From positions 477,501 through 541,500 of the forward strand of contig JAFCIZ010000001.1 of the NCBI GenBank assembly GCA_017871115.1: a stretch of 64,000 nt of DNA, given 5' to 3'. Below, in pieces: positions 2,399 to 3,505 of the stretch. The position numbers and the translations under genes are program-made. Under the pieces are notes generated by a model. That model ran no database searches and was not told where the DNA came from. It worked only from the letters and a program-made list of their open reading frames with translations. The stretch's first letter is position 1, and each line of letters starts with the position of its first letter. The DNA is from Cunninghamella blakesleeana. Lineage: Eukaryota; Mucoromycota; Mucoromycetes; Mucorales; Cunninghamellaceae.

Positions 2399-3505
2399 CT
2401 AAACAATGACAACTTCAGCCAATGAAGTTGATTTGCCATATTCATATCTTTCTTTCAATGAATTCAATTTATGTTCGGGTTTTTTGTAAATAATTAATCC
2501 AAGAATGAACACAAATATCCACGTAACATAGAAAACACGAGCAGCATCCAAAAGGTTCATTTTTTCAGCTTTTGATATAGAGTGAATTAGAATTATGATA
2601 GTTGATGCTGAAAGGCCACCAGTTATCCATTGAACTTTTTTCTCGATACGCAACCACTTGTCAGTAATTTTCAAATTAACAGCGGGTTTTAAAAAAGGTA
2701 GCATTCTTGCTTGTAACCCTTTGAGGTCACCATCAATCACTTCGTTTGCCTCTTTGATTTTAATGCTACGGTCTAATACCTTATCTTTTAGTTCATTTGC
2801 TTTAATTACAAATTCATCATATGATCCATGCAATTCTTGTGCACCAGAAGGCACCTTAAAAACGCTAGTTCCTTTAATATATACATAGTAATATATGAAA
2901 GCATGAATAGTAGTGATTGCTATTATGCAAACTGTCAAAACAAAAATAAGAGTAGTATCCTCTGATATTGTGCATGAAAGAACTGCCGGGATAAAACCAA
3001 TTGCATTACTCGCAATGAATTTTGAGCTGTAGCCACCCAACTTCTTCTTAAAAACTGTATGATGTTTTCTTTCCAGGTCGTATATTTGATTCATTTGAAT
3101 GCTGGCATCTTTGATGGCTTGATCAATAGTTTTTACATCATACATAGCCCGAAAAGCATGTCTAAATTTGATTACGAAATCTTTCCAAGTTTTGATATCG
3201 CTGCCAATCAACCATAAAGCAGCTCGATCACCTAAAAAGTCCTTCACGTTGCTTAATTTATCTTCCTCATTTATCCAGCCACTTCGCATTGCTCTTTCTT
3301 CATACATCAATAACCAACCAATAGGTTCCATGCCATACTGGAAAGTTTTAATAGGAGGGCGGCGATAAGATGGTACTCTCTCTAGTGCACGACCAATTTT
3401 GGATATCAAATAAGGAAGTACTTTATCTTCAATGGAATTAGGGTCCATTTCAATTTTACCTTCCTTGGTATCAAAATTAATAACTAATGAACTAGTACCA
3501 ACCAT
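2399..3505 (-). CDS. Gag-like capsid domain fused to a four-helix membrane region
   Basis: A single-exon frame of 368 codons. I start it at ATG 3505-3503; a TTG two codons upstream extends the frame but is not a likely start. Residues about 52-119 carry the pattern of a Ty3-type retrotransposon Gag capsid domain: a Trp near residue 64, Tyr-Glu-Glu, an alternating hydrophobic stretch with FLGDRAALWL, then TWKDF and a terminal Phe. No CCHC zinc knuckle follows. Instead there are hydrophobic segments at about 163-178, 185-210, 293-311 and 322-340, around a charged central region (211-290) likely to be helical. The tail is hydrophilic. No protease, reverse transcriptase or integrase frame lies nearby. 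Either a domesticated Gag domain was captured by a membrane protein, or this is an unusual element-encoded protein. The Gag resemblance is pattern-based; the membrane segments are seen directly. The intact frame in a decayed region suggests constraint or recent arrival. Confidence 0.7.
   Translation of the reverse strand: MVGTSSLVINFDTKEGKIEMDPNSIEDKVLPYLISKIGRALERVPSYRRPPIKTFQYGMEPIGWLLMYEERAMRSGWINEEDKLSNVKDFLGDRAALWLIGSDIKTWKDFVIKFRHAFRAMYDVKTIDQAIKDASIQMNQIYDLERKHHTVFKKKLGGYSSKFIASNAIGFIPAVLSCTISEDTTLIFVLTVCIIAITTIHAFIYYYVYIKGTSVFKVPSGAQELHGSYDEFVIKANELKDKVLDRSIKIKEANEVIDGDLKGLQARMLPFLKPAVNLKITDKWLRIEKKVQWITGGLSASTIIILIHSISKAEKMNLLDAARVFYVTWIFVFILGLIIYKKPEHKLNSLKERYEYGKSTSLAEVVIV

Follow-up and report, generated by a model that had tools for sequence, protein, structure and literature searches.

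We identified in Cunninghamella blakesleeana an intact reading frame that, by profile comparison, encodes the N-terminal capsid lobe (N-lobe) of a Ty3-type (Metaviridae) Gag with an undetectable C-lobe, joined to a region of two predicted membrane hairpins. We consider it very probable that, with this anatomy, the frame is a domesticated, single-copy Cunninghamella host gene and not an element. The whole stretch of DNA analysed, here called the window, spans 64,000 nucleotides (bases 477501–541500 of contig 1, in a genome of 31.9 Mb and 12 contigs). The frame occupies window positions 2399–3505 on the minus strand, with its ATG at 3505 and its stop codon at 2399–2401, and specifies 368 amino acids in a single exon. 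The original prediction had the coordinates of this intact single-exon frame right and omitted the strand. The encoded protein is named P0001, and its two relatives from Cunninghamella echinulata are P0002 and P0003.

Among the four ATG frames of at least 80 aa that overlap window positions 1–9000, the frame is the second longest; its GC content, 0.346, exceeds that of the 1-kb flanks (0.20 and 0.25), and P0002 shares its start and length. From the amino end, the protein (all coordinates on the minus strand) begins with a tail without a known domain (residues 1–48; 3362–3505), where identity among the three proteins is 0.63–0.82 (residues 1–49). It continues with the predicted Ty3-type Gag capsid N-lobe (residues 49–118; 3152–3361) and a helical linker with a basic end and no C-lobe signal (residues 119–162; 3020–3151), along which the alignment with Gag fades at residues 133–143. 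A first hydrophobic hairpin (residues 163–210; 2876–3019) is separated by a charged middle region (residues 211–292; 2630–2875), helical in a low-confidence model, from a second hydrophobic hairpin present in all three proteins (residues 293–340; 2486–2629), and the protein ends in a tail with a basic start (residues 341–368; 2402–2485).

The Pfam Retrotrans_gag model does not detect the 2399–3505 frame; a profile made of ten Gags, namely nine Ty3-type Gags of the same genome and P0004, without the P0001–P0003 family, does. With that profile, the frame ranked first among 318 window frames at 33.6 bits (E 4.6e-10), the runner-up scoring 3.8 bits. The Gag set goes back to 36 Retrotrans_gag matches in the genome, from which 25 frames were collected (20 listed loci and five fetched); nine representatives served in the shuffle controls and, together with P0004, in the profiles, and further copies of the same families as well as a truncated frame (L014) were left out. 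Outside the window, Ty3-type elements with long open frames are abundant (loci L009–L012, L015–L020 and others), and several families occur in four to seven copies whose profile scores are identical, an indication of recent activity.

A profile–profile comparison of residues 1–175 of the three proteins with the ten Gags returned a probability of 95.2% and a score of 55.6 over residues 49–133, and the N-terminal 160 aa of P0001 scored up to 17.8 bits against the nine representative Gag frames (summed score, 63.1). None of 200 column shuffles reached the former score (maximum, 25.1) and none of 300 sequence shuffles the latter (maxima, 8.2 bits and a sum of 13.3), so that the Gag pattern is not due to chance; the reversed sequence and the C-terminal half stayed at or below 1.1 bits against the nine frames. 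When residues 1–151 were compared with the six-frame translated genome, the 12 candidates scored were the frame itself and 11 other places (seven at E 0.013 and four at E 0.07), and all 11 overlap independently found Retrotrans_gag matches. Two of these, one per E group, were scanned with Pfam, and each has Gag, RT, RNase H and integrase domains; the zinc knuckle scores above the Pfam cut-off in one and below it in the other. Residues W64, L91, W98 and W107 are invariant between P0001 and the aligned genomic Gag pieces. Three profile methods place the Gag region at residues 49–133, 59–143 and 59–118, recovering the capsid pattern that had been proposed at residues 52–119. Judged by these comparisons, the homology to Ty3-type Gag capsid is real, though missed by Pfam; the expectation that a Gag model would recognise the frame thus failed for the Pfam model and held for the ten-Gag profile.

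Only half of the capsid could be found. The Gag alignment was divided where the N-lobe ends, to give separate N-lobe and C-lobe profiles. The N-lobe profile gave 28.1 bits for P0001, 30.7 for P0002 and 29.1 for P0003, with ten held-out Gags at 17.1–62.3; the C-lobe profile gave −0.8 bits for P0001 and −1.1 for P0002, with no row for P0003, and 10.2–62.3 for the ten held-out Gags. A CCHC zinc knuckle pattern occurs in none of the three proteins, in line with the knuckle having been called missing at the outset. The AlphaFold models are weak (pLDDT 43 and 59). The model of residues 41–165 (pLDDT 59) has helices at 61–74, 80–101, 107–118 and 124–155, and fold searches with the low-confidence models listed no capsid; the CA-NTD of Ty3 is described as a four-helix bundle in excerpts of PMC6525542. 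P0001 thus has the N-lobe and lacks a detectable C-lobe, as a “half-CA” does, and at −0.8 bits with the C-lobe profile it does not qualify as an Arc-type two-lobed capsid. Detection of the N-lobe only, which the original prediction had overlooked, sets the protein apart from Arc and brings it closer to the RTL8/LDOC1 kind of “half-CA”. Arc, named for comparison in the original prediction, shares the Ty3-type N-lobe and differs in overall build, having both lobes where P0001 has no detectable C-lobe.

The membrane half consists of two hydrophobic hairpins on either side of the charged middle of about 80 residues. Hydropathy in P0001 peaks at residues 163–181 (1.63) and 186–204 (2.6) in hairpin 1, and at residues 293–311 (1.42) and 321–339 (2.2) in hairpin 2. 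There are, then, the four hydrophobic segments first described; two are strong and two only moderate, so not all are “strongly” hydrophobic. P0002 shows the same four peaks, segment 1 again at 1.63, and P0003 as annotated shows three: 23 residues of hairpin 1 (P0001 184–206, between P0003 183 and 184) are missing, which could mean that an intron was annotated in error or that these residues are truly lost. A hydrophobic membrane segment such as that of Drosophila Gagr is thus present by hydropathy alone, and both hairpins are predicted to insert into a membrane. Basic residues prevail at their outer ends, with six K/R against one D/E before hairpin 1, five against two before hairpin 2, and six against four after hairpin 2. 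No K/R occurs in the turn of hairpin 1; two K/R and two D/E lie in the turn of hairpin 2. Because the latter turn is not free of basic residues, we take the positive-inside rule only to suggest that the soluble parts are all cytosolic. Reticulons have a topology of two hairpins and a cytosolic loop, which the predicted arrangement recalls.

A search among 5.8 billion proteins found relatives only in C. echinulata, where two proteins keep both halves, so that the fusion occurs in another genome. P0002 has 368 aa and is 85% identical to P0001; P0003 has 345 aa and an identity of 65% by BLASTP, or 69% over aligned columns. Between P0001 and P0003, the best kept regions are the linker (0.81) and the Gag lobe (0.77), all others ranging between 0.48 and 0.71; between P0001 and P0002, a value of 0.90 is shared by the Gag lobe and the two hairpins.

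In its own genome, the 2399–3505 sequence is single copy over 31.9 Mb, both as protein and as DNA, and the membrane half has no second match in the genome at E values up to 10. Window positions 1–8000 contain no LTR-like repeat pair, only simple A+T-rich repeats, and none of the four ATG frames of at least 80 aa in window 1–9000 matches pol in Pfam, in agreement with the earlier remark that no pol frame lies nearby; to the left of the window, two of the seven ATG frames of at least 100 aa in one 10-kb flank were scanned with Pfam. The marks of an LTR retrotransposon (LTRs, pol, more than one copy) were accordingly not found within these bounds. What was found is the combination that characterises a domesticated Ty3/Metaviridae capsid gene, that is, Gag homology in a single copy without pol and, over window 1–8000, without LTR-like repeats. 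Its nearest neighbours that can be recognised are of an ordinary kind, COPI_assoc, Pam17 and RabGAP-TBC, the first two lying on one side of the gene. Between window positions 6616 and 22231, Pfam recognises ordinary host genes, namely COPI_assoc, Pam17, RabGAP-TBC (two frames) and aldehyde dehydrogenase; of the eight window frames scanned, three (8937–10130, plus strand; 17466–19250 and 20789–22231, minus strand) are without a Pfam match at E 0.001. A short ATG-to-stop frame at 5055–5225 on the plus strand, starting MLNDKNEKEKIDVIG, lies isolated in A+T-rich DNA upstream of the 2399–3505 gene and is possibly an exon or a gene remnant. Further on, at 37338–38534 on the plus strand, a frame of 398 aa consists largely of low-complexity sequence rich in Ser, in which Arg, Lys and Asn are also frequent; it may be an exon of an SR-type protein.

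Of the two readings offered in the original prediction, the “domesticated capsid-like membrane protein” is thus supported by the single copy, the failure to find LTR-like repeats or pol nearby and the fusion in two C. echinulata proteins, and the “new element type”, with its expected copies between LTRs, is not supported. We hold domestication as such, with or without a known use, with high confidence. The gene would be a domesticated “half-capsid” gene like RTL8 and LDOC1 with a polytopic membrane region in addition.

What such a protein might do is suggested by human RTL8, a domesticated Gag with the N-lobe only. According to excerpts of PMC11684626, RTL8 binds the N-lobe of PEG10 and not the C-lobe, enters PEG10 particles and lowers the abundance of VLPs, and so antagonises a full-length capsid protein. 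By analogy, the N-lobe of P0001 would retain the homotypic lobe–lobe contact of capsid assembly and would be held at an internal membrane, the soluble parts being probably cytosolic. The tethered lobe could then bind the Gag of the genome’s Ty3 elements and, itself without a C-lobe to link capsomers, could prevent the assembly of that Gag, as RTL8 does with PEG10. Targets for restriction exist: of the 36 Gag matches, many share identical scores and lie in long open frames, and RT matches, from mixed classes of element, number at least 150 (150 of 247 candidates scored). We propose only tentatively that a membrane-tethered N-lobe traps the Gag of resident Ty3 elements in this manner. Because the restriction mechanism is held so cautiously, the statement as a whole, a host half-capsid gene that includes Gag trapping, can claim no greater confidence, and it too is a possibility on the less probable side. 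That the fungus has a membrane-anchored restriction factor in which half a Ty3 capsid on two hairpins captures Gag and blocks assembly is, in our estimate, a little more doubtful still. Against restriction, few parts change more slowly than the Gag lobe in the comparison with P0003, and an arms race would often make it change fastest.

A stable host partner would account for that slow evolution about equally well, for which reason we give the same tentative weight to a different use of the domesticated gene, as a membrane adaptor on the ER or another membrane, whose N-lobe would be a module for binding host partners, peptides or proteins, in the cytosol and would play no part against elements. 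The N-lobe of Arc is reported as just such a module for host partners. When the family was combined with four genomic Gag N-lobes into one profile, Arc or fly Arc2 made up seven of the ten PDB sequences listed, with E 0.0012–0.0068 for five of the seven and Arc N-lobe structures best; the match depends on the Gag rows, however, as the profile of the three-protein family alone showed no relation to Gag or Arc among the PDB sequences, and the host partners are hypothetical. The conservation of Gag lobe and linker in P0003 above all other regions is what an adaptor with a stable partner would lead one to expect. In style, this reading would come closest to Drosophila Gagr, the product of a domesticated gag that includes a transmembrane or GV-rich region; Gagr is reported to localise to membranes, with the ER as the supposed site (excerpts of PMC8956099).

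It is improbable that the gene is a chimera of recent origin that serves no selected function and is heading to decay. Such a gene would agree with the occurrence in Cunninghamella only, at the search depth used, and with the partial loss of hairpin 1 in P0003 as annotated. Yet conservation differs by region, and all three frames are open, those of P0002 and P0003 as annotated. In 1000 simulated runs of unconstrained substitution at each divergence, the frame stayed free of stops in a fraction of 0.026 when protein divergence was 15% and of 0.001 when it was 31%, which is supporting evidence only, because databases favour intact frames.

It is very improbable that the frame belongs to a novel kind of mobile element, one with membrane helices attached to its Gag. 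Homology to Gag in a protein of no known host role would allow it, but the single genomic copy, the absence of LTR-like repeats and pol within the stated stretches and the unique membrane half speak against it. An accidental resemblance of some helical protein to Gag, for which the Pfam result and the fold searches of weak models could be cited, is equally remote, as shuffle controls, genome-wide search, held-out controls and profile comparison are all contrary to it.

The domesticated half-capsid, our preferred reading, has several partial counterparts. RTL8 and LDOC1 are small proteins that are not known to have a polytopic membrane region. These mammalian SIRH/RTL “half-CA” genes resemble the Cunninghamella gene as host genes with only the metaviral capsid N-lobe (excerpts of PMC11011659 and PMC11684626) and differ from it by their independent mammalian origin; several SIRH/RTL genes are said to retain the N-lobe only (PMC11011659, in part). 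Gagr is likewise a membrane-localised product of a domesticated Ty3/gypsy gag with a hydrophobic stretch, but has one transmembrane or GV-rich stretch where P0001 has two hairpins; in excerpts of PMC8956099, it is known only in insects and its transmembrane region was acquired. ASPRV1/SASPase combines a Gag-like domain with a hydrophobic, putatively transmembrane stretch; unlike P0001, it resembles the C-lobe and carries a protease, and the review’s own prediction (PMC11402058) does not class the stretch as transmembrane. Among fungi, yeast Drt2 is described as a domesticated capsid fragment that inhibits Ty1′ (excerpt of PMC10951436). Saccharomyces Drt2 and Ty1 p22/p18 (PMC4599808, PMC8458377) are alike as fungal capsid fragments inhibiting a retrotransposon, but belong to the Ty1 lineage and comprise the C-terminal part of Gag/capsid, the opposite half, with no membrane anchor mentioned in the excerpts of these sources. 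If P0001 restricts elements, it would stand beside RTL8 as a fungal counterpart of independent origin and would mirror yeast Drt2/p22, being made of the opposite half and membrane-bound.

Each feature by itself has precedents, in domesticated capsid genes, in half-capsids and in a membrane-anchored gag. In the literature searched, partly in excerpts, capsid domestications were found in mammals and flies, with yeast Ty1 as the fungal cases, and no description was found of a Mucoromycota fungus in which an N-lobe alone is joined to two membrane hairpins. Since the genome has many Ty3 elements with long open frames, the restriction idea is directly testable. An N-lobe that gained a polytopic membrane region in Mucoromycota would be a further independent origin of a “half-capsid”, and, if it restricts elements, capture by one lobe would look like a repeatable form of retroelement control, with a membrane-tethered version in this fungus.
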